This document shows positions 20,700 to 34,279 of a stretch of 34,485 bases of DNA, in pieces (positions within the stretch are counted from its first letter, which is position 1; every line of letters begins with the position of its first letter). This stretch comes from Candidatus Kapaibacterium sp. (GTDB lineage: Bacteria; Bacteroidota; Ignavibacteria; Kapaibacteriales; Kapaibacteriaceae). A program made the translations under genes and the position numbers. The stretch is from NCBI GenBank assembly GCA_018882585.1, contig VFFB01000015.1:1-34485 (forward strand), given 5' to 3'. Below the pieces are notes generated by a model. That model saw only the letters and a list, made by a program, of their open reading frames with translations, did no database searches and had not been told where the DNA came from.

Positions 20700-21659
20700 T
20701 CACACGAGTAACGTTGAAAGGTCGATCAGATAGGAGGGCACAGCCTTGTGCGTTTCCCATGTTGCTTCAAGCGGAACATACGTCAGATCGGGGCCGGCCT
20801 GGCCAACCATGACGTCGCTTTGCCCCTCGAGAAGAGCGTCGACGGCTGCCGCCCCAAGGCGGGCCGCCAGTACGCGGTCGCGCACCGTTGGTGCGCCACC
20901 ACGCTGTACGTGTCCAAGGATGGTGACCTTTGGGGCAATGCCGTAGCGCGATTCCAGACGCTGCGCCAACTGCATGGCGCCACCGGATTCGTCGCCTTCG
21001 CCTACGATCACGACCGTGCGTTTGTCCAAACCCTGCGTCACGATGCGCTCGTAGAGTACTTCGACGTCTGTGAGCGTCTCCGGCACGGCCACATATTCGG
21101 CACCACAGGCAACGCCCACGTCCATGGCAATGAAGCCGGCATGGCGTCCCATCACTTCGACAAAGAACACGCGGCCATGCGAATCGGCCGTATCGCGGAT
21201 ACGGTCGATGGCAACAGCCGCAGTATTGATGGCCGTATCGTAGCCAATCGTGTAATCCGTTCCGAACAGGTCATTATCGATGGTACCCGGCGTACCCACA
21301 ATCCTGATGCCGTGCTCGACGTGCAACAGGTGAGCGCCATGAAAGGTACCGTCGCCTCCGCAGGCGACAACGCCGTCAATGCCATGTTTCCGCAGCTGCT
21401 GCACTGCCGCAGCACGCTGATCGGCATCGTGAAACTCAGGACAGCGGCTTGTCTTGAGGATCGTCCCACCGCGGTCCAGAATATTGGCAGTCCTGATCCG
21501 ATCCAGCAGTTCGAAATGCCCGTTCAGCATGCCGGAATAGCCGCCGACGATGCCAATGGTCTCGACACCACGCTTCTCGGCCGTCCGCTCAATGGCACGG
21601 ACGTGGGCATTCATTCCGGGGGCGTCTCCCCCGCTGGTAAAAACAGCAATGCGTTTCAT
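20700..21659 (-). CDS. pfkA: ATP-dependent 6-phosphofructokinase
   Basis: 319 residues, the standard length. VFTSGGDAPGMNAHVRA, CGGDGTFHGAHLL, GTPGTIDNDLFGTDYTIGYDTA, EVMGRHAGFIA and LGHVQRGGAP are the PfkA blocks. The Gly after Asp in GGDG and the Gly in PGTIDND correspond to the two glycines that mark the ATP-using, not the pyrophosphate-using, class. It makes fructose 1,6-bisphosphate. I take Met at 21659 (MKRIAVF), not the longer in-frame extension. TATTTTCG (minus strand, 21666-21673) is a one-mismatch -7 element six bases upstream. It heads the six-gene run down to nadC. Confidence 0.95.
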   Translation of the reverse strand: MKRIAVFTSGGDAPGMNAHVRAIERTAEKRGVETIGIVGGYSGMLNGHFELLDRIRTANILDRGGTILKTSRCPEFHDADQRAAAVQQLRKHGIDGVVACGGDGTFHGAHLLHVEHGIRIVGTPGTIDNDLFGTDYTIGYDTAINTAAVAIDRIRDTADSHGRVFFVEVMGRHAGFIAMDVGVACGAEYVAVPETLTDVEVLYERIVTQGLDKRTVVIVGEGDESGGAMQLAQRLESRYGIAPKVTILGHVQRGGAPTVRDRVLAARLGAAAVDALLEGQSDVMVGQAGPDLTYVPLEATWETHKAVPSYLIDLSTLLV

Positions 21660-21722
21660 TGACGGCGAAAATAGGGATTCGGAAACACGCATGTGTAGGT
21701 ATTCACGGAACCCAGCATGCCT

Positions 21723-21751
21723 ATGTTATCCCGATGTTACGAAATGGTTAC
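21723..21751 (+). promoter_or_regulatory. Pho-box-like array: three 7-bp direct repeats with 4-bp spacers
   Basis: ATGTTAT (21723-21729), ATGTTAC (21734-21740) and TGGTTAC (21745-21751) are separated by exactly four bases, giving an 11-bp period. That is the known geometry of the E. coli PhoB box (CTGTCAT half-sites with 4-bp spacers), and the half-sites resemble it. The array lies about 80 bases before a phosphate-selective porin and the pst operon, so a PhoB-like response regulator site is the natural reading. Confidence 0.65.
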
Positions 21752-21774
21752 GCAGGGGTCGAAAACCTTCGCTG

Positions 21775-21782
21775 TATGTTCG
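21775..21782 (+). promoter_or_regulatory. Candidate -7 promoter element for the porin gene
   Basis: TATGTTCG matches TAnnTTTG with one mismatch and lies 23 bases after the Pho-box-like array, so the array would cover the -33 region as expected for an activator site. A start near 21788 would leave a leader of about 40 bases. Confidence 0.35.
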
Positions 21783-21785
21783 CCG

Positions 21786-21814
21786 CCGTTACAATTACAC
21801 AACGATTTCGTTAC
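21786..21814 (+). promoter_or_regulatory. Second, weaker Pho-box-like array in the porin leader
   Basis: CCGTTAC (21786-21792) and TCGTTAC (21808-21814) are two 11-bp periods apart, with a degenerate middle unit ACACAAC (21797-21803). It ends 15 bases before the ATG, so it may mark a second regulatory layer, or be chance. Confidence 0.35.
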
Positions 21815-21829
21815 ACGAAAGGGGCTACG

Positions 21830-23062
21830 ATGAACCCAATGCCAATCCGCCGGACAGTTACTGCCATGGTTCTGCCAATACTGGCCCTCCTCATGGCGCC
21901 TGCCTTGGCCTTCGGCCAGGCGACCACACAGTCGGCAGGCAGTTTCGACTTCAACAGCGACGGCATTGTGTTCATGACGGCCGACAGCTCGTCGAGGGTC
22001 GTCATGCGCTTCCGCACACAGAACTGGGCCACCTTCACGATGGACGATGAGTTCGACGTCGTTTCGTCCGAACTGCAGCCGCGCCGTCTGCGCTTGCGCT
22101 TTGGCGGACACCTTGTTGACCCGCGGCTGACGTACAACATCCAGCTGTCGTTCACACGCGGCGACCAGGATTGGACCGACACACAGTTCCCGAACATCGT
22201 GCGCGACGCCATGGTATTCTGGAACTTCACGCCGAATCTGCAAGTCGGCTTTGGGCAGACCAAGCTGCCTGGCAACCGCCAGCGCGTGATCTCGTCGGCA
22301 GACCTGCAGGTACCCGATCGATCCATCGTCAATGGCGCCTTCAATATCGACCGTGACTTTGGTCTGCAGGGCTTCTGGCGTCCCATCCACGGTAGCGTCA
22401 TTGTGAACTTGCGTGGTGCCGTCTCAAGCGGCGAGGGACGCAACCAGCCCACGATCACCGGCGACGGTCTTGCCTATACGGGTCGTGTCGAAGTGCTGCC
22501 CTTTGGCGCATTCAAGGGTGGCGGCGACTACTTCGAGGGCGACCTGCTGCGCGAGCCGACGCCGAAGCTGAGCGTTGGACTGACGGCCCACCGGAACGCC
22601 AATCAGACGCGCACACGCGGAACGCTCGGCACGCAGCTCTTTGCCCAGCGAACGGCCGAAGTACTGTACGCCGATGCCCTCATGAAGTATCGCGGCCTGT
22701 CGTTCTACGGCGAGTTTGCTCGTCGGACGGCCGACAACCCCATCACGGTCAACAGCAAGGACACCACGCAGAAGGCCGCCATCCTTGTCGGCATGGGCTA
22801 CATGGCCCAACTGTCGTACTGCTTCCCGTCGATGTTCGAGGTAACCGGACGCTATGCCGTTACCGATGCCGACGACGCTTTGGCTGGACTGCGCGATTAT
22901 GTCAAAAACGAGAACGCATCACTGACCTGCACCTACTATGCCAACCGGCACCGGATAAAGGGGAACGTCGAGATGGGCCTGAACCGGCAGACGGCGTATA
23001 ACAGCGGCAACGCCGTGACGACGACGTACTACGTTCGCTTCAACACCGAGTTGGGCATCTGA
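21830..23062 (+). CDS. Phosphate-selective porin O/P family protein
   Basis: 410 residues. Signal peptide MNPMPIRRTVTAMVLPILALL with cleavage near ALAFGQ, then an OprO/OprP-type barrel: FDFNSDGIVFMTADSSSRVVMRFRTQNW, LQPRRLRLRFGGHLVDPRLTYNIQLSFTRG, VFWNFTPNLQVGFGQTKLPGNRQRVISS, NIDRDFGLQGFW. It should form a trimeric outer-membrane channel for anions, probably phosphate. Unusually for this window there is a good Shine-Dalgarno, AAAGGGG at 21818-21824, five bases before ATG 21830. The final residues lack the terminal Phe usual in barrels but end in a beta strand (YYVRFNTELGI). The gene lies directly upstream of pstSCAB-phoU. Confidence 0.9.
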   Translation: MNPMPIRRTVTAMVLPILALLMAPALAFGQATTQSAGSFDFNSDGIVFMTADSSSRVVMRFRTQNWATFTMDDEFDVVSSELQPRRLRLRFGGHLVDPRLTYNIQLSFTRGDQDWTDTQFPNIVRDAMVFWNFTPNLQVGFGQTKLPGNRQRVISSADLQVPDRSIVNGAFNIDRDFGLQGFWRPIHGSVIVNLRGAVSSGEGRNQPTITGDGLAYTGRVEVLPFGAFKGGGDYFEGDLLREPTPKLSVGLTAHRNANQTRTRGTLGTQLFAQRTAEVLYADALMKYRGLSFYGEFARRTADNPITVNSKDTTQKAAILVGMGYMAQLSYCFPSMFEVTGRYAVTDADDALAGLRDYVKNENASLTCTYYANRHRIKGNVEMGLNRQTAYNSGNAVTTTYYVRFNTELGI

Positions 23063-23111
23063 CGTTACATCAAGAAGACGTAACACACGGCCCCCTTCAC
23101 CCCTCACATCG

Positions 23112-23119
23112 TAACTTTG
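23112..23119 (+). promoter_or_regulatory. Candidate -7 promoter element for pstS
   Basis: TAACTTTG fits TAnnTTTG exactly, 25 bases before the pstS ATG, in the 82-base gap after the porin gene. It would let pstS be transcribed apart from the porin. A matching -33 TTG is not seen. Confidence 0.5.
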
Positions 23120-23144: not shown

Positions 23145-23987
23145 ATGCTTCGGATCTTTAGAACGCTTGCTCCGGTCATTTCGATGATCCTGTTGCCGGG
23201 AATCCTTTTGGCATTCGCTCCGCAACGCATCTCGATCAAGGGCTCAGACACGATGGTCATCCTGGTCCAACGCTGGACCGAACTCTATCCCGACAAAGCA
23301 GGCGTCGAGTTTCAGGTTACCGGCGGTGGCTCGGGCGTTGGCATTGCCGCATTGATCAACGGCACCACCGACATCTGTGCTTCATCGCGTCCGATGAAGC
23401 CCGCCGAAGTCGAACAGATGAAGGCCAAGTACAACTACAAAGGTCTGGAAGTCCGCGTCGCCCGCGACGGCCTGGCAATCTACGTGCACAAGAGCAACAA
23501 GGTAAAGCAGCTTACCATGGAGCAGGCTCGTCTGATCTTCACTGGTAAGGTGACGAATTGGAAAGAAGTCGGAGGCGCCGACAAGCCGATCAACCTGTAT
23601 TCGCGCGAGAACAACTCCGGCACGTATGAGTTCTTCAAGGAGCATGTACTCCTGAAGCAAGACTTTGCTCCGCAGGCGCAGCATATGGCAGGCACGGCCG
23701 CTCTTATCAATGCCGTCAGCAAAGACGTCAATGCCATCGGCTTTGGCGGCGCTGCCTATGCTAAGAATGTCAAGGCAGTGGCAATTGCCGAAGAGGCCGG
23801 CAAGCCGTACATCACGCCTAACGAAACGTCGATCCTGAGCGCGACGTATCCCATCTCGCGTTTTCTGTACTTTTACCTCAGCAAGCGCCCAGAAGGCAAC
23901 ATCAAGAAGTTCATCGACTGGGTGATCTCGCCGGCAGGACAGAAGGTTGTCGTCGATGTAGGCTACTACCCCATCAAGAAGATGTGA
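23145..23987 (+). CDS. pstS: Phosphate ABC transporter substrate-binding protein
   Basis: 280 residues with a signal peptide (MLRIFRTLAPVISMILLPGILLAFA). ISIKGSDTM is the phosphate-binding N-terminal loop, VTGGGSGVGIAALINGTTDICASSRPM the second, and SRENNSGTYEFFKEHVL the third, all as in PstS. No lipobox Cys is present, so it is probably periplasmic and soluble. It captures phosphate for PstCAB. Gap to pstC is four bases. Confidence 0.95.
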   Translation: MLRIFRTLAPVISMILLPGILLAFAPQRISIKGSDTMVILVQRWTELYPDKAGVEFQVTGGGSGVGIAALINGTTDICASSRPMKPAEVEQMKAKYNYKGLEVRVARDGLAIYVHKSNKVKQLTMEQARLIFTGKVTNWKEVGGADKPINLYSRENNSGTYEFFKEHVLLKQDFAPQAQHMAGTAALINAVSKDVNAIGFGGAAYAKNVKAVAIAEEAGKPYITPNETSILSATYPISRFLYFYLSKRPEGNIKKFIDWVISPAGQKVVVDVGYYPIKKM

Positions 23988-23991
23988 GACC

Positions 23992-25227
23992 ATGAATCCG
24001 TTTCGGGCAACGAGCAGGCATGTAGGTGAACATGTTGCGGAGTGGAGTATCCGCATCGTTGCCTCGTTTTCGATCATCGTCATCTTCCTGATCTTCATCT
24101 TCGTGTTTCGCGAAGCGATGGGCCTGTTCGCAGGACCGAAGGAAGCAGCCGAGGCCGTCACGCAGGTACCGGCCGACGATCTTAGGCCGGAGGTGTACAA
24201 TCCCGACGTGATGTCGCTCGAGGAACGTCTTGCCGCCGAGGCGGCTGCGGCCGAATCGCAGGACGTCTACAATCCCGACGCCGTCCTTGCCCAGGAACCT
24301 GCGGCATCGAACGAGCAGGACGTCTACAATCCCGACGCCGTCCTTGCCCAGGAACCTGCGGCATCGAACGAGCAGGAAGTGTACAACCCCGAGGTTGAGC
24401 TTGGCACGCCTGCGCCCACGACAAGTGTCGCCACCCCGGAGACACCTGCGGCGGAACTAGCAGACCGATCGCTGTGGGACAAGCTGACGGGCTCTGTCTG
24501 GCAACCCGTTTCGGAGATACCCAAGTATGGCATGGTGCCGTTGTTCATTGGAACGGCCAAGACGACGATCGTGGCCATTCTGATCGGTGCACCGCTGGGC
24601 ATTCTTGCAGCCCTGTATACGGCCTTCTTTGCATCCCGAAGACTACGCAACATCGTCAAGCCTGCCATCGAATTGCTGGCGGGCTTCCCGTCTGTCGTCA
24701 TCGGCTTCTTCTGTCTGAGCATCATTGCAACGTACCTGCAGGACCTGTTGGGTACAACCTTCCGTTTGAACGCCCTTGTTGGCGGCATCGGACTGTCGAT
24801 CACCGTCATCCCGCTGGTCTACTCCATCGCCGAAGAGGCGCTATCGTCTGTCCCACGCTCGCTTCGCGAAGCGTCGCTCGCCCTTGGGTCGACCGAATGG
24901 CAGACGGCCTACAGGGTGATGCTTCCTGCTGCTGCCCCGGGCGTCTTCGCTGCCGTGCTGCTTGGCGTTGGTCGCGCCTTTGGCGAGACCATGATCGCCC
25001 TTATGGCAACCGGCAATGCCCCCTTGGCATCATGGAGCATCCTTGAACCGGCACGAACATTTGCCGCAACCATCGGCTCGGAAATGGGCGAAGTGGTCTG
25101 GGGCTCCGAACATTACGGCATTCTGTTCCTGATCGGCTCGATGCTCTTTGTGGTGTCGTTCGGACTGAATGCGATCACGGAGCTTTATGTGAAGCAGCGT
25201 CTCATCAAGCGGTTTCAGGGGAAATGA
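23992..25227 (+). CDS. pstC: Phosphate ABC transporter permease PstC, with a repeat-expanded periplasmic loop
   Basis: 411 residues, about 100 more than usual. TM1 is at about 20-40. Next comes a charged, Ala/Glu-rich segment (45-165) with VYNPD-type motifs at 68-72, 92-96, 111-115 and 130-134. The WQPVSEIPKYGMVPLFIGTAKTT block and the permease core with five more helices follow. The cytoplasmic coupling motif is [28 protein letters not shown], and GRAFGETMIALMATGN is the conserved PstC loop. The extension lies between TM1 and TM2, so it should be periplasmic, near PstS. The stop overlaps pstA by four bases. Confidence 0.94.
   Translation: MNPFRATSRHVGEHVAEWSIRIVASFSIIVIFLIFIFVFREAMGLFAGPKEAAEAVTQVPADDLRPEVYNPDVMSLEERLAAEAAAAESQDVYNPDAVLAQEPAASNEQDVYNPDAVLAQEPAASNEQEVYNPEVELGTPAPTTSVATPETPAAELADRSLWDKLTGSVWQPVSEIPKYGMVPLFIGTAKTTIVAILIGAPLGILAALYTAFFASRRLRNIVKPAIELLAGFPSVVIGFFCLSIIATYLQDLLGTTFRLNALVGGIGLSITVIPLVYSIAEEALSSVPRSLREASLALGSTEWQTAYRVMLPAAAPGVFAAVLLGVGRAFGETMIALMATGNAPLASWSILEPARTFAATIGSEMGEVVWGSEHYGILFLIGSMLFVVSFGLNAITELYVKQRLIKRFQGK
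24259..24372 (+). repeat. Perfect in-frame 57-bp tandem repeat (two copies) inside pstC
   Basis: Copies at 24259-24315 and 24316-24372 are identical base for base and each encode 19 residues, QDVYNPDAVLAQEPAASNE. Partial, diverged units flank them (EVYNPDVMS from 24193; QEVYNPEVEL from 24373). As 57 is a multiple of three, gain or loss of copies keeps the frame. Confidence 0.95.
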
Positions 25228-26147
25228 TGCTGACCTTTTCAGGACATCTGGCTCCACACAAACGTGTCATCGGTTTCTTTGCCGTACTGGTTGCTGCCTT
25301 CGCAGCTGTTGCCATCCTTGGATTGCTGGTGTCGATGCTTGGCACGTTTACTATTGGCGGTCTGCCGCATCTTACGTGGACCTTCCTTACCGAAGCGCCG
25401 CGTAACAGCAACATGGAGGGCGGCATCTTTCCCGCCATCATCGGCACGGCGCTGCTGGTACTGATCATGACATTGTTGGGCGTTCCCGTCGGAACGGCTA
25501 CGGCAGTCTACCTGAATGAGTACGCAAAGCAAAGCAGCGTCTTTGCACGTAGCGTACGGTTTGCCGTTAACACCCTTGCCGGCGTTCCGTCCATCGTCTT
25601 TGGATTGTTTGGCGTCGGCTTCTTCGTCCAATTTCTCGGCAAAGGGTTGGATGGGGCAGTGTATGGCGACACGAATGCCAAGGTCTTTGGCGAGGAGAGT
25701 CTGCTGTGGTGTTCGGCTACATTGGCCGTGCTGACGTTGCCCGTGGTGATCGTTGCCGTTGAAGAGGCTCTGCGAGCCGTACCCAGAGAACTGCGCGAGG
25801 CAAGCCTTGCGCTGGGTGCTACGCGCTGGCAGACCATCCGACGTGTCGTGCTGCCAAATTCGCTTACCGGTATCCTTACGGGGTCCATCCTTGCCGTTGG
25901 CCGTGGTGCCGGTGAAGTAGCCGCTATCCTGTTCGTTGGTGTGGCCTATTCCATGGGATCAGACCCCGGGCTGACGGAGAAGTTTATGCACCTTGGCTAT
26001 CACCTGTACGTGTTGGCAACGCAATCGCCCGACGTCGAAAAGGCCCTGCCGCTGCAGTACGCCACTACCCTTGTTCTGCTTGCGCTTACGTTCCTGTTGA
26101 ATTTCACCGCCATCTATATCCGGTCGCGACTGCGCGCCAAGCCCTGA
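25224..26147 (+). CDS. pstA: Phosphate ABC transporter permease PstA
   Basis: 307 residues with six predicted membrane helices. It shows a [25 protein letters not shown] segment, [16 protein letters not shown], the [21 protein letters not shown] helix, and the coupling motif [35 protein letters not shown], then [14 protein letters not shown]. This is PstA. With PstC it forms the inner-membrane channel. ATG 25224 overlaps the pstC stop; ATG 25227 is the only close alternative. pstB begins two bases after the stop. Confidence 0.95.
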
Positions 26148-26149
26148 CC

Positions 26150-26917
26150 ATGGCCAAGGAAACACCCATCAAAGCACGGACCGTTGACTTCTCGTTCTAC
26201 TACGGAAGCAAGCAGGCGCTGTACAACATTTCGATCCCGATGCATCAGCATCGGGTGACTGCCTTCATCGGCCCCAGCGGCTGTGGTAAATCGACGTTTC
26301 TGCGTTCGATCAACCGGATGAACGACCTGATCGACGGAACGCGGCATACCGGCCTGATGGAAGTGGATGGCACCGACGTGTATTCGCCCGAGGTTGACGT
26401 CACGACGCTTCGACGTCGCGTGGGCATGGTCTTTCAGAAGTCCACGCCGTTCCCAAAGTCGATCTACGAGAACATCACCTATGGATTGTCGCTGACGCAG
26501 AACAAGCCCAAGTCCGAACTCGATGGCATCGTCGAATCGTGTCTGCGTCGTGCGGCCCTGTGGGACGAGGTGAAAGATCGTCTGCATCACTCGGCGCTGG
26601 GACTTTCCGGCGGACAGCAGCAGCGTCTGTGCATCGCCCGTGCCGTGTCGATCAACCCCGAGATCCTGCTGATGGACGAACCGTGTTCGGCCCTCGACCC
26701 GATCTCGACCGGCAAGGTCGAAGAACTCATCACCGAACTCAAAGACGCCTACACCATCGTACTTGTGACGCACAACATGCAACAAGCGGCACGGGTATCC
26801 GACTATACCGGTTTCTTCCTGATGGGTCGACTGATCGAATTCGATCGCACGCGTACGATCTTCACCAGTCCGGCACAGAAGGAAACCGAAGATTACATCA
26901 CCGGTCGCTTCGGCTGA
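26150..26917 (+). CDS. pstB: Phosphate ABC transporter ATP-binding protein
   Basis: 255 residues. Walker [10 protein letters not shown] (41-49), then [12 protein letters not shown] (PstB-specific), Q-loop [22 protein letters not shown] signature [14 protein letters not shown], Walker [17 protein letters not shown] and switch His in [10 protein letters not shown]. It powers PstCA. Thirty bases separate its stop from phoU, with no terminator visible. Confidence 0.97.
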
Positions 26918-26947: not shown

Positions 26948-27661
26948 ATGAATAAAACGTTCGAAGAGGATCTCGACAAACTCCGCACGCGCCTGATCCG
27001 CATGGGCTCGCTGGTCGAAGAACAGGTCGAGTTTGCCATGCGCGCCCTGAACGAGGGCAACACCGAACTCGCTCGGATCGTGACGGAGCGTGACGATAAG
27101 ATCGACAAGCTCGATCTGAAGATCGACAAGCAATGCCAACGCATCTTCGCGCTCAACCAACCTGTGGCAACCGACCTGCGGCTGCTGCTTACGGCCATGA
27201 AGATCAACAACGAGCTTGAGCGCATCGGCGATCGCTCTGCCGATCTTGCGCAGATGGTCATCAACGACCCCCGCACCGTCCAACTGGGCCAGCGCATCGG
27301 CATCAACCGCATCACGCAGGCCACCTACGTGATGATCAAGTCCAGCCTTGATTCGTTCATCAACAACGATCCCGAGCTGGCGCACCATATTCTTCCGACC
27401 GATGATACCGTCGACCGTCTGTACGACTCGCTTCATGCTGACCTGGTCCGCGAAATGGCAGCCGATCCATCACTCATCGAACCTGGTGCAAGGGTTATTT
27501 TGGCCCTGCACGAGATCGAGCGGATGGCGGATCATGCTACCAACATCGCCGAGAACGTGATTTTCCTCATTGAAGCAAAGCTTGTACGCCACCGCTCCGT
27601 AACCAACGACGATGCGTCGTCACGTGGCGATGAGGCCCAAGCGGCAGAAGAGAATGGCTGA
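26948..27661 (+). CDS. phoU: Phosphate-signalling regulator PhoU
   Basis: 237 residues, all helical, with two repeats each carrying the metal-binding E-x3-D motif: NNELERIGDRSADLAQM in the first and LHEIERMADHATNIAENV in the second. PhoU links PstSCAB activity to the PhoR kinase and represses the Pho response when phosphate is plentiful. phoR and phoB are not in the window. The stop overlaps rmlA by eight bases. The C-terminal tail is short and acidic. Confidence 0.95.
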   Translation: MNKTFEEDLDKLRTRLIRMGSLVEEQVEFAMRALNEGNTELARIVTERDDKIDKLDLKIDKQCQRIFALNQPVATDLRLLLTAMKINNELERIGDRSADLAQMVINDPRTVQLGQRIGINRITQATYVMIKSSLDSFINNDPELAHHILPTDDTVDRLYDSLHADLVREMAADPSLIEPGARVILALHEIERMADHATNIAENVIFLIEAKLVRHRSVTNDDASSRGDEAQAAEENG

Positions 27662-30277: not shown

Positions 30278-30625
30278 TTAGATCTCTTCAAGACAATCCT
30301 TGATGATCTTCTTCATCTGCCGTAGCTCCTTGATCTTGTCGTCGAGTGCCTGAAGCTTGCGCTCAAGGATCTGTCGTTTTTCTCGCTTCGTGTACGTGTC
30401 TTTATACCACGCATCAATGATCTCGCTGATCTCCTGCAGCGTAAATCCAGCAGACTTGGCGTCAAGAATGAGTTCCAGACGATCTACAGATTCCTCGTCG
30501 TAATGCAGGTGGTTATTCGAGGTGATTGTCGGGTCGCGATGACCGCGAACAAGCCCGTATCGTTCATAGAACCGAATTGTGTGGACGCTTACGCCCGCGC
30601 GTTTTGCCAGCTCGTTGATCAGCAT
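30278..30625 (-). CDS. MerR-family transcriptional regulator
   Basis: 115 residues. MLINELAKRAGVSVHTIRFYERYGLV is the winged helix-turn-helix of the MerR family; residues 30-75 hold the wing and second helix pair (LHYDEESVDRLELILDAKSAGFTLQEISEII), and 80-115 form a dimerising coiled coil rich in Lys/Glu. The short, Cys-poor tail gives no hint of a metal ligand. It is divergent from a short-chain dehydrogenase pseudogene across a MerR-like dyad operator, so that gene was probably its target. Bases upstream of 30625 in frame are not coding. The last 78 bases recur identically at the window edge. Confidence 0.88.
   Translation of the reverse strand: MLINELAKRAGVSVHTIRFYERYGLVRGHRDPTITSNNHLHYDEESVDRLELILDAKSAGFTLQEISEIIDAWYKDTYTKREKRQILERKLQALDDKIKELRQMKKIIKDCLEEI
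30282..30359 (-). repeat. Direct repeat, copy A (3' end of merR)
   Basis: Identical over 78 bases to 34408-34485, where the window stops, so the true repeat may be longer. The two copies diverge immediately past the merR stop region. Confidence 0.97.
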
Positions 30626-30656
30626 TGACGTTGTTGCCTGTGAATAACTGTACGTC

Positions 30657-30680
30657 AACCATAGACTATGCTCTAAGGTT
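30657..30680. promoter_or_regulatory. MerR-type dyad operator with 19-bp spaced promoter
   Basis: Arms AACCATAGAC (30657-30666) and CTCTAAGGTT (30671-30680) form an imperfect 24-bp dyad with AACC/GGTT ends and TAGA/TCTA inner matches. On the plus strand a -35-like TCAACC (30655-30660) and a TAACAC (30680-30685) are 19 bases apart, the long spacing typical of MerR-activated promoters. It lies 32 bases from the merR start and 79 bases before the dehydrogenase remnant. Confidence 0.6.
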
Positions 30681-30705
30681 AACACAAAGGCGATTATCGC
30701 TGTAG

Positions 30706-30722
30706 GTTGGAAGAGTTCCAAC
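30706..30722 (+). promoter_or_regulatory. Small perfect hairpin in the dehydrogenase leader
   Basis: GTTGGAA and TTCCAAC pair perfectly around GAG, followed by GATTCTTTT. Short stem and a weak T-run; could be an attenuator-like terminator or a second operator. Confidence 0.35.
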
Positions 30723-30758
30723 GATTCTTTTCTCAAGCACATCAAAGGCAGATCAATC

Positions 30759-30888
30759 ATGGCAGCAAAGACAGTACTTATCACGGGATCGAACAGCGGG
30801 ATCGAACAGCGGGATCGGCAAGGCTGCGGCAACGCTGTTTTCACAAGCCGGCTGGAATGTCGCCGCAACGATGCGCACCATCGAATAG
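30759..30888 (+). pseudogene. Short-chain dehydrogenase/reductase, frameshifted and truncated
   Basis: ATG 30759 opens MAAKTVLITGSNSGI, the start of the SDR nucleotide-binding motif TGxxxGIG. A 13-bp unit, GGGATCGAACAGC, is present twice in a row (30785-30810) and shifts the frame. Removing one copy restores GSNSGIGKAAATLFSQAGWNVAATMRTIE, a normal SDR N-terminus, up to a stop at 30886. Nothing recognisable as SDR follows 30900, and hipA ends at 30978, so the gene is both frameshifted and cut short. It faces merR across the dyad operator, a common MerR-SDR arrangement. Confidence 0.85.
30785..30817 (+). repeat. 13-bp tandem duplication causing the frameshift
   Basis: Two full 13-bp units followed by the first seven bases of a third (GGGATCG). 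The undisrupted gene would already have GGGATCG twice, 13 bp apart, a natural substrate for replication slippage. Confidence 0.9.
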
Positions 30889-30977
30889 GGTACCGACCAT
30901 TCGAGTTGACAAACATCAACCACGCATCGACGACAAAAGAGCTCACTCCCCCGGCATTCATGCGTCTGAATGGATCG

Positions 30978-32234
30978 CTAGTGGTTGAACGCTTGCTGCA
31001 TTTGATGTATCTCCTGCCGCGAAAGGCCGATCTTCTTCGCCTCATCAGACCATGTGGACACGATTGACGCCATGTACGCGATCAGCTCTTTGGCTCGAAG
31101 CGATGAGACTCTGAAGGAGGGTGCAACATCTTCGACGAGAGCAAGATCAAGGAGATTATCTGTCTCACTGATGTTCAGACGCAATCCTGTTCCAAAGGGC
31201 ACCGGGTTAATGTCATACACCGGTGCGAGCTGCCACATCCCATCAGGTCCGAGCAGAAAGCTATGATTTCGAAGATGATCATCCGTGTTCGCTATCAGAA
31301 CGTTCAAGAGAATTCGCTTCCACAGTTCTTCAAGCTGCTGTGAAACGTTCGAGCAATGACGGACGATAAAGTCAGCAAGATCAAGGTAGCTTACCCCTGT
31401 TGTATGGTCATCGCCATCCTGCCGACCCAGAAGAGTCATCGCAGACGCCGCATGAATTCGTCCGCCATTACCGGAGCGGTCAAAGCGTTTGCTCAATAGT
31501 GTGCTGTGCCCCATTCCGAAACGTTCGAGTCGCACAGTAGGTGTGTTGATTCCACACCTTGCAGCCAGTGTCGTTACCAGGTACTCCCAAGCCGCCACAT
31601 TCCACGAATCCGATCGACTAGGGAACTTCGCGATCCAAAGATTACCGTCAGGATCAATGACGCTTGCCTTTGGCCGAGCACCACCAAGTGAGGAACCGGG
31701 TGCAAGAAGTTGCAATAGACGAGCCAACTCATGCTCATCAGCATTACCTTGTTCGTAGGACAGACTAACCTCTTGGAGCTTCCGTAACGATGTTAGCGGC
31801 GGTGCTGCATAGGTATCATTATCATCGAGGAACGGCCCGTCAGGGCTGAGCTGAAATCGAAGTCCACCGAAGCGTCCCGCGTCATGGACACCGAGAAGGA
31901 AATCGCTATCGAGCATCCTGCCGGGTTCGACTCCCTGCTGCCTTGCCAGGTATGACGCTCGCTGCTGCATGATGGTTCTTCCCCAACGATCAGGAGCAGA
32001 GTCCATGAACACGCCGAACATAGACCTACCAGCCGAAACGTACTGAGGACCAGAGAATAGCTTCAGATCAGGATCGATCACAACCGCGGATTTGCTGCGA
32101 AGCCACGACGGGTCGTACGTGAAGGAAAATGTCTCCCTACCCCGTGCTGCGTGAACATTCAGCTCACCAACGCGGACGGGTCCACCAAGACCAATCCAGT
32201 CTGCAACAACATGTATCGTCCGGGACGCGCTCAT
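30978..32234 (-). CDS. hipA: HipA-family serine/threonine kinase toxin
   Basis: 418 residues. An N-terminal subdomain is followed by the Gly/Ser-rich ATP loop GSSLGGARPKAS (180-191), LLSKRFDR, the catalytic loop IANTDDHLRNHSFLL (NTDDH at 316-320) and the DFG-equivalent YDINP (340-344). This is the HipA fold. In E. coli HipA phosphorylates glutamyl-tRNA synthetase and induces dormancy; the target here is unknown. All catalytic motifs look intact. ATG 32234 follows the hipB stop by five bases, in the usual antitoxin-toxin order. The region is more AT-rich than the chromosome to its left. Confidence 0.9.
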   Translation of the reverse strand: MSASRTIHVVADWIGLGGPVRVGELNVHAARGRETFSFTYDPSWLRSKSAVVIDPDLKLFSGPQYVSAGRSMFGVFMDSAPDRWGRTIMQQRASYLARQQGVEPGRMLDSDFLLGVHDAGRFGGLRFQLSPDGPFLDDNDTYAAPPLTSLRKLQEVSLSYEQGNADEHELARLLQLLAPGSSLGGARPKASVIDPDGNLWIAKFPSRSDSWNVAAWEYLVTTLAARCGINTPTVRLERFGMGHSTLLSKRFDRSGNGGRIHAASAMTLLGRQDGDDHTTGVSYLDLADFIVRHCSNVSQQLEELWKRILLNVLIANTDDHLRNHSFLLGPDGMWQLAPVYDINPVPFGTGLRLNISETDNLLDLALVEDVAPSFRVSSLRAKELIAYMASIVSTWSDEAKKIGLSRQEIHQMQQAFNH

Positions 32235-32239
32235 GGTGA

Positions 32240-32557
32240 TCAAGTTCCTCTTCGCGTCGACACCCGTTTCCGTGCGGCAAGTCCGAGGTCCTGAAGTTTT
32301 CGGCCCAGCTCATCGTTACTGGCCGCCGTGCCGAGCCCTGTCTCCAGACCAAGGACAACCAAGACCTGCAGGTATGCTCCGATGGAGACCGATGGCGTGC
32401 CCGCCTCAATACGCATGAGTGTCAGCCGGCTGATGCCGGCGCGCTCAGCAACCTGCTCGGCCGTGAGCGAGCGCCGAAGGCGTGCCAGACGAATGTCCCC
32501 GCCGAGGCCCTCAAGGACACGTCGATGCTTTGGAAGAATGATTTCATCGGTATTCAT
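32240..32557 (-). CDS. hipB: HipB-type XRE antitoxin
   Basis: 105 residues from MNTDEIILPKHRR; an ATG 21 bases earlier (32578) is possible. RLARLRRSLTAEQVAERAGISRLTLMRIEAGTPSVSIGAYLQVLVVLGL is a textbook XRE helix-turn-helix, followed by DELGRKLQDLGLAARKR. HipB proteins bind their operator and hold HipA inactive. It is five bases upstream of hipA, so the two form one unit. Confidence 0.88.
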   Translation of the reverse strand: MNTDEIILPKHRRVLEGLGGDIRLARLRRSLTAEQVAERAGISRLTLMRIEAGTPSVSIGAYLQVLVVLGLETGLGTAASNDELGRKLQDLGLAARKRVSTRRGT

Positions 32558-32698
32558 AATGTTCTCTAAACGTCTCATTATGTGCGTTATTGTTCAATCT
32601 ACGGTACATTATTTGAAACAGAGAGCAACCATTTTCCCTCTCGGACATCCTACCTGTTACGGCGAGAGCTACCATGACTCACCGAGCCTACGTCCTCA

Positions 32699-32791
32699 CA
32701 TGCACCCCGATTGCAGGCCGAACACACGAACCGTTATGGTACGCGTGTGACGGCGATGCGCACGGTGCATGCGAGCAGACCGATGGCGTAA
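32699..32791 (+). pseudogene. Remnant of a DUF4286 gene (3' end, second copy)
   Basis: In frame it reads HAPRLQAEHTNRYGTRV, then TAMRTVHASRPMA and a stop. Bases 32700-32771 match 30077-30148 at 70 of 72 positions. It lacks a start and the first 73 codons, and the last few codons differ from the intact gene. Confidence 0.9.
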
Positions 32792-32849
32792 AGGATACGT
32801 CGGATAACGACGTCAGGCTGTTAAATCACGCAATTATTGCGTCCGTATA

Positions 32850-32859
32850 TTGCGCGCAA
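32850..32859. promoter_or_regulatory. Palindrome TTGCGCGCAA upstream of fic
   Basis: A perfect 10-bp palindrome 22 bases before the GTG start of fic. The Fic protein has its own N-terminal winged helix, so this could be an autoregulatory site; chance is possible for so short a palindrome. Confidence 0.3.
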
Positions 32860-32881
32860 CGTCAAATGCGCAAGTATCATT

Positions 32882-34279
32882 GTGTCGAATCGCATACCAC
32901 CAAACGCCATTGATGCCCTTATAGGGATTATTGCCGCGCATGAACGTGGCGCTGCTCTTGAGGACATTGCGCCATTGTGTTCGGATGTTCCACGGCGGAC
33001 ACTTCAGCATCGATTGTCGGTTCTGGTCAGCCAGCAGCGAATCATTCGGGTTGGAAAGGGGCGTGCCACGCGCTACCATCATGTACGAACGCTAACGCTG
33101 CGAGAGCAGACCGAGCGCTATCGTGCGGATGACCCCGCGTCGAATATCTCAGCAACACTTCGGCTGACGCCAGAGGGCAAAGAGGTCCAGCAATTGGTAC
33201 GTTTGCCAGTGGTAGCTCGAACGCCGGTAGCATACAACCCGGACTTCCTCCATGCGTACCGTCCGAACGAGACCTTCTATCTGTCGTCGGATACTCGAAC
33301 GGAACTGCTCGAATGCGGTCGCACGCTCGACGCTGTGCGACCTGCCGGAACGTACATCAAAACGATGTACAACCGACTCCTGATCGATCTGTCGTGGAAC
33401 TCTTCCAGGCTTGAGGGAAGCACCTACTCGCTGCTCGAGACCGAGCATCTGTTCACACAGGGTCGCATCGCCGATGGGGCGAACCTGCATGACGTCCAGA
33501 TGATCTTGAATCACAAGACGGCCATTGACATGCTTGTTGAACAGCAGGAAGACATCAATCTCAATAGGTTTACGATATTAGGATTGCACAACATTCTCTC
33601 GGACAATCTGCTTGCCGATTCCAGTGCCCAGGGACGGCTTCGCAAGCGTCCGGTTGGAATTGCAGGCACTGTCTATCTTCCACTGGAAGTCCCGCAGCTG
33701 ATCGATGAGTATTTCGGCGCAATACTCGATACCGCAGTCGCGATCAAGGATCCATTCGAGCAGGCCTTCTTCGTGATGGTGCACCTTCCGTATCTGCAGC
33801 CCTTCGAAGATGTCAACAAGCGCGTCTCACGTCTTACCGCAAACATCCCGTTCATACGGGAGAATCTCAGCCCCTTGTCCTTCGTCGACGTACCCGTTAC
33901 CGAATACATCGAAGGACTTCTCGGTGTATATGAACTCAATCGTATCGAGCTTCTTCGCGACGTGTTCGTCTGGGCCTACAAACGATCCTGTCTGCGCTAC
34001 TCGGCCATGCGGCGCACGCTCGGCGAGCCCGATCCGTTTCGGTTGCACCATAGAAACGCCTTGTATGCAACGATCGCAGAGGTCGTCCGCGCCCGAATGG
34101 ACCGCACCTCGGCGGTGGCCTTCATCCGAATGCGGGCCACAGAATCTGTGTCCGATGTCGACAGGTCCCGTTTCGTCGAAGTCTGCGAGACCGAGATCAT
34201 GAATCTGCACGAAGGCAACATCGCTCGCTTCCGTCTGCGGCCGTCAGAGTTCATGGAATGGAAGGAAGCATGGCAGTAG
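32882..34279 (+). CDS. Winged-helix Fic-domain protein with a noncanonical active site
   Basis: 465 residues from GTG 32882; a TTG at 32837 is the only earlier option. Residues 1-70 resemble a winged helix (AALEDIAPLCSDVPRRTLQHRLSVL, then RIIRVGKGRATRYH). The Fic part has an inhibitory-helix motif (S/T)xxxE(G/N), Ser174 to Glu178-Gly179 in SSRLEG, and a Fic loop at 33797-33832 reading QPFEDVNKRVSR where the canonical loop is HxFxDGN(G/K)RxxR. The catalytic His is Gln306 and the GN pair is VN. The surrounding HLPYLQPF and SRLTANIPFI are well formed, so it looks like a distinct subfamily, not decay. AMPylation activity is therefore doubtful. The gene sits alone between a DUF4286 remnant and a second merR end. 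Confidence 0.82.
   Translation: MSNRIPPNAIDALIGIIAAHERGAALEDIAPLCSDVPRRTLQHRLSVLVSQQRIIRVGKGRATRYHHVRTLTLREQTERYRADDPASNISATLRLTPEGKEVQQLVRLPVVARTPVAYNPDFLHAYRPNETFYLSSDTRTELLECGRTLDAVRPAGTYIKTMYNRLLIDLSWNSSRLEGSTYSLLETEHLFTQGRIADGANLHDVQMILNHKTAIDMLVEQQEDINLNRFTILGLHNILSDNLLADSSAQGRLRKRPVGIAGTVYLPLEVPQLIDEYFGAILDTAVAIKDPFEQAFFVMVHLPYLQPFEDVNKRVSRLTANIPFIRENLSPLSFVDVPVTEYIEGLLGVYELNRIELLRDVFVWAYKRSCLRYSAMRRTLGEPDPFRLHHRNALYATIAEVVRARMDRTSAVAFIRMRATESVSDVDRSRFVEVCETEIMNLHEGNIARFRLRPSEFMEWKEAWQ

Follow-up and report, generated by a model that had tools for sequence, protein, structure and literature searches.

What controls the porin and phosphate-transport genes of this uncultured Kapabacterium, and do the 11-bp repeats that stand before them constitute a Pho box? 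The window, by which we mean the whole stretch of 34,485 nucleotides analysed here, carries a divergent phosphofructokinase gene (Pfk; 20700–21692, minus strand) at the far edge of a conserved intergenic region, followed on the plus strand by a porin gene (21830–23062, with its ATG start codon at 21830) and by pstS (23145–23987), pstC (23992–25227), pstA (25224–26147), pstB (26150–26917) and phoU (26948–27661). The products of the last five match TIGR02136, TIGR02138, TIGR00974, TIGR00972 and TIGR02135, respectively, all above cut-off. The porin matches the Pfam family Porin_O_P (PF07396) at 27.7 bits against a gathering cut-off of 20.9, a weak match whose family name is no proof of phosphate selectivity. 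A first-pass annotation of the sequence had named a phosphate porin and pstSCAB-phoU as the neighbours of the repeats, and a Porin_O_P protein, PstS, PstC, PstA, PstB and PhoU are indeed what is found. The relatives of the PstS protein that bear a name are Candidatus Kapaibacterium and 'Ignavibacteria' metagenome assemblies, so that the host is a Kapabacterium or closely related to one. Further downstream of the phosphate genes, those for a MerR-type regulator, a HipA-like kinase and a Fic-domain protein are clustered (30278–34279).

From sequence, we consider it very probable that the intergenic region holds the phosphate-starvation promoter of porin–pstSCAB-phoU and that this promoter is driven by a PhoB-like regulator. 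The Pho-box reading is well supported at this level, since a footprint of the box is kept within the family, the phoB gene shares both the box and its spacing, and the pattern is specific genome-wide.

Repeat arrays and the predicted promoter

Array 1 consists of three 11-bp units, ATGTTATCCCG, ATGTTACGAAA and TGGTTACGCAG (21723–21755, plus strand), whose half-sites ATGTTAT, ATGTTAC and TGGTTAC begin at 21723, 21734 and 21745; the period is exactly 11 bp and the spacers are 4 bp, so that the coordinates, steps and spacers first annotated for the three half-sites are all exact. Within the array lies the core box, GTTAC-N6-GTTAC at 21736–21751 (plus strand), which is conserved, was scored by matrix and has the family form GTTAY-N6-KTAAC. 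A possible fourth, degenerate unit, GGGTCGAAAAC (21756–21766, plus strand), is suggested by alignment, several relatives having a third good GTTAC/GTAAA unit in its place. The -7-like element that had been annotated after array 1 is likewise present as TATGTTCG, of the Bacteroidota TAnnTTTG type, at 21775–21782 (plus strand), 23 nt past the core box. Because the TAnnTTTG consensus lies at -12 to -5 in Flavobacterium (PMC9723704), the predicted transcription start falls near 21787, on the border of array 2. This second array, GTTACAATTAC, ACAACGATTTC and GTTACACGAAA (21788–21820, plus strand), is an NTWAC direct repeat of 11 bp, with GTTAC at 21788 and 21810, 22 bp apart, and a weak ACAAC at 21799 in the same register. 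In the window, the half-sites of both arrays are in direct orientation.

A three-unit array of equal quality arose in none of 100 Markov-resampled 34.5-kb windows and, when the 138-bp intergenic region was resampled 20,000 times, in 2 of the copies. Genome-wide analysis consisted of pattern searches. The scan proposed in the first-pass annotation, run here with three copies of TGTTAC-N5 and up to three mismatches, gave a single match in the 2.79-Mb genome, that of the window, which precedes the phosphate genes; the reversed control gave two matches, so that the triple by itself is just moderately surprising and, judged on its sequence alone, would leave some doubt. These two control matches are what could be said for the repeats being a chance pattern, an explanation that is refuted by conservation across genomes, fixed spacing and specificity, and to which we assign virtually no weight. 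What makes array 1 convincing, judging from the sequences, is the comparative footprint.

The core box in relatives and at phoB

All 20 family genomes examined share the gene order NADK-DUF1844-Pfk and, across the gap, porin-pstS, and most of them carry the core box between Pfk and porin. The usual family layout is GTTAY-N6-KTAAC, about 23 nt, TANNTTYG, 4–6 nt and then three NTAAC units at 11-bp period. Since the family porins are 36–67% identical to the porin of the window, these short conserved promoter blocks are not merely a product of recent shared ancestry. The layout has exceptions: L043, L057, L061 and L062 are without one or both of its parts, the porin box is missing in several family genomes (e.g. 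L043, L061 and L062), and some genomes have a box just before pstS, in place of or beside that of the porin. The porin–pstS gap of the window contains GTTAC and two GTAAC words (23065–23115) that are not 11-bp spaced; a proper core box occupies this gap in the relatives G010, G012, G021, L045, L055 and L061.

The box sits at the -35 region of the predicted promoter. In 31 promoters, 22–24 nt separate the core from the -7 element; 11 promoters form a second cluster at 33–38 nt, longer by roughly one turn of the helix. Throughout the order, the upstream box reads GTTAY-N6-NTAAC/T. The plain direct repeat (A/T)TGTTAC-N4, which had been proposed as a consensus on the basis of the window, is not the conserved form, and the three-fold direct look of array 1 is, on comparison of these promoters, local to the window. 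Many other families of the order also have the core upstream of pstS (e.g. GTTACCAAAACGTAAC); in unrelated myxobacterial and verrucomicrobial loci it is absent from that position in nearly all cases, with one weak match (L177).

The host genome encodes three OmpR-type regulators, one of which (L041:1000-1719; G000:C46) is followed by a histidine kinase gene. The best NCBIfam match of this regulator is the Bacteroidota PhoB (NF053854) at 242.7 bits, below the cut-off of 270, and the adjoining kinase, whose nearest families are PnpS and PhoR, likewise scores below cut-off, so that the PhoB-like naming is provisional. E. coli PhoB contacts bases through T194, V197, R201 and R219 (PMC3264566; the reference sequence was confirmed against PDB 1gxp); the threonine and valine are kept in the Kapabacterial regulator and both arginines are lysine there, a pattern that would fit a box of related but altered sequence. 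The promoter of the regulator gene reads GTTATGCGTTCTTAAC, 23 nt, TAGCTTTG, and the same layout of box, spacing and -7 element stands before phoB in most relatives.

A pattern that joins the core to the promoter, RTTAY-N7-TWAC-N22..25-TANNTTYG, has exactly two matches in the host genome, those of phoB and porin–pst. Across 23 family genomes it has 34 matches, which by gene position are assigned to phoB (15), porin–pst (14) and others (5); its reversed control has 6 in these genomes. The idea at the centre of the first-pass annotation, a PhoB-type box before porin–pstSCAB-phoU, thus stands on the box and spacing shared with phoB and on the two host matches, but its direct-repeat consensus does not. 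A stricter core pattern gave 20 matches, 19 of them at phoB, porin or porin–pstS gap sites. The stricter family pattern misses the window box, a degenerate copy without the usual KTAAC second half-site; a matrix built from the phoB promoters of other genomes only ranks 21736 first in the 34.5-kb window, both strands included. When further host regulon members were sought with the core-plus-promoter pattern at up to two mismatches, 14 matches were obtained versus 12 in controls, and those above background were the top two exact matches and an overlapping register of the window site only. The core regulon is accordingly predicted to be very small, comprising phoB and porin–pst. The single stray match of the strict core, in L261 (G009:C10:240998), lies upstream of an amidohydrolase-like gene.

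The form of the core in relatives suggests another explanation, namely that the core is a palindromic operator, GTTAC-N6-GTAAC, through which some other dimeric regulator, for instance a repressor, controls the phosphate genes. The third base is nearly always T in half-site 1 and A in half-site 2, and the two arms are symmetric in most relatives, as in GTTACCGAAAGGTAAC and GTATTACggaattGTAATAC. By this third base, the relatives' counterpart of array 1, GTTAY...KTAAC, is inverted, but the flanks of its half-sites are not, so that inverted recognition of the core is favoured by the third base and direct recognition by the flanking bases. Nor would a palindromic operator sit easily with the extra units that join at 10–11 bp steps, with the plain 11-bp direct repeats of the same unit before pst in sister lineages, with the constant helical spacing of box and -7 element that would be expected of an activator, or with phoB and porin–pst being the only shared targets of the box. 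We hold such an operator to be distinctly unlikely. As in a Pho box, the half-sites stand in tandem at an 11-bp period, and the box precedes phosphate-uptake genes as well as the gene of the regulator itself; the partly inverted-repeat look of the core is a counterpoint to the PhoB-like reading, as it is not the textbook PhoB arrangement.

We propose that a PhoB-like regulator operates this promoter in the following way. When phosphate is scarce, the regulator, encoded at another locus of the genome (G000:C46) beside its PhoR/PnpS-like kinase, would become phosphorylated and would bind the core box at 21736–21751 together with a further upstream unit at 21725, its site being centred near -42. 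The bound regulator would bring in sigma-A RNA polymerase at the -7 element (21775–21782), transcription would start near 21787, and the regulator would also activate its own gene through a like box at equal spacing. Activation by the PhoB-like regulator is supported by where the box lies relative to the -7 element, by its presence before both phoB and pst, and by the fixed helical spacing.

Array 2 and the sister-lineage repeat

Array 2 overlaps the predicted transcription start. A search for it with up to three mismatches in 23 genomes returned porin-promoter sites only, and the control returned none. Its predicted place at +1 does not fit simple activation; extending from +1 to about +33, array 2 would be expected to tune or limit porin transcription and not to activate it. 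Two further candidates were considered and rejected: a second promoter after array 2, for which a conserved -7-like element some 10 nt further on is missing from the family alignments, and a divergent promoter driven by array 2 towards Pfk, for which no conserved minus-strand -7 element was seen in an inspection by eye only.

The comparison was extended beyond the order, to further orders of the class and to two loci elsewhere in the phylum; most of the pst operons there are not preceded by the exact Kapabacterial core. The sister lineages carry plain direct repeats, NTAACAWTTNC at 11-bp period, before porin–pst or pst operons (L229–L233, L235, L236, L239, L240, L243 and L246). Three copies of NTAACA at period 11 precede pst in 11 of 17 sister-lineage loci at p<=0.008, a count that involves some choice because operon starts were placed by hand, and the mean best score of the sister loci is 12.1 at period 11 versus 9.4–9.7 at other periods (8–14). 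In this part of the phylum, the NTAACAWTTNC repeat is likely to be a wider Pho box. A long ORF whose position alone suggests a porin precedes pstS in L229, L231, L232, L233, L234 and L243, and with such an ORF in several sister lineages the porin–pst order may be old.

The unit of array 2 is this same NTAACAWTTNC unit, and because of the match to the sister-lineage direct-repeat box a PhoB-like regulator is predicted most likely to bind array 2. The first-pass annotation had described a weaker second array of the same period; the 11-bp period is indeed shared, and it is this array, there called weaker, that the sister-lineage box matches. We favour, with moderate confidence, the reading that array 2 is bound by the same regulator acting as a limiter. 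A less likely, though serious, alternative is that array 2 is the operator of a second, porin-only regulator and not a PhoB site, as might be expected of an element that is porin-specific, absent from phoB and pst-only promoters, and present without array 1 in L061. This alternative leaves unaccounted for the identity of the array 2 unit with the sister-lineage pst box, and the resemblance of its reverse complement to the units of array 1. Lying where the porin mRNA is predicted to begin, array 2 could also be an RNA leader element of this transcript, which we regard as highly improbable: there is no Rfam match, the predicted fold is no better than those of shuffles (z=+1.15), the 11-bp period is exact, and the unit recurs upstream of pst genes in other lineages.

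Taking array 2 as a site of the PhoB-like regulator, one may speculate that this regulator moved from direct repeats, which the sister lineages kept, to an inverted pair at about -42, and that the older direct-repeat box shifted to the +1 region of the porin as a brake. We consider this scenario rather unlikely; if true, the built-in brake would mean that the porin peaks at moderate starvation and pst remains high. These promoters also raise the question of how regulators of the OmpR family change over between half-sites in direct and in inverted orientation.

Relation to known Pho boxes

In the open-licence literature we found no description of a Kapabacterial Pho box, and for the TTAACA-type Bacillus box and the RegX3 inverted repeats there was no usable literature match. 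The switch is of an ordinary kind, and its sequence has apparently not been worked out before in this bacterial branch: the element is known in type, and its consensus and layout are new. What emerges is a concrete consensus for the Kapabacterial Pho box, together with a related consensus for that of the sister lineages.

As is well known, Pho boxes are built of tandem 11-bp units, in each of which 7 bases are conserved and 4 are loose (PMC4415409). With the E. coli box, in which CTGTCAT direct repeats are bound by PhoB, the Kapabacterial box has in common the 11-bp unit, a half-site of the TGTYAY type and a placement in the -35 region of the promoters of pst and phoB. It differs in that its half-site is TGTTAY, in place of TGTCAT, and its second half-site normally KTAAC; unlike the E. 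coli promoter, the Kapabacterial one has 23 nt between the box and a Bacteroidota-type -7 element, and an extra array at +1. Bacteroides fragilis belongs to the same phylum in the broad sense; its PhoB has been shown to bind to the promoter of pstC and to drive pst expression when phosphate is low (PMC3547664), and we found no box sequence described for it in the open-licence literature. For the flavobacterium Riemerella anatipestifer, in-vitro DAP-seq with 583 peaks yielded the PhoP motif TTTAACA (PMC9603813). The PhoP set of this species is not a compact phosphate regulon; the TTAAC core of its motif is common to the direct repeats of the sister lineages and to array 2.
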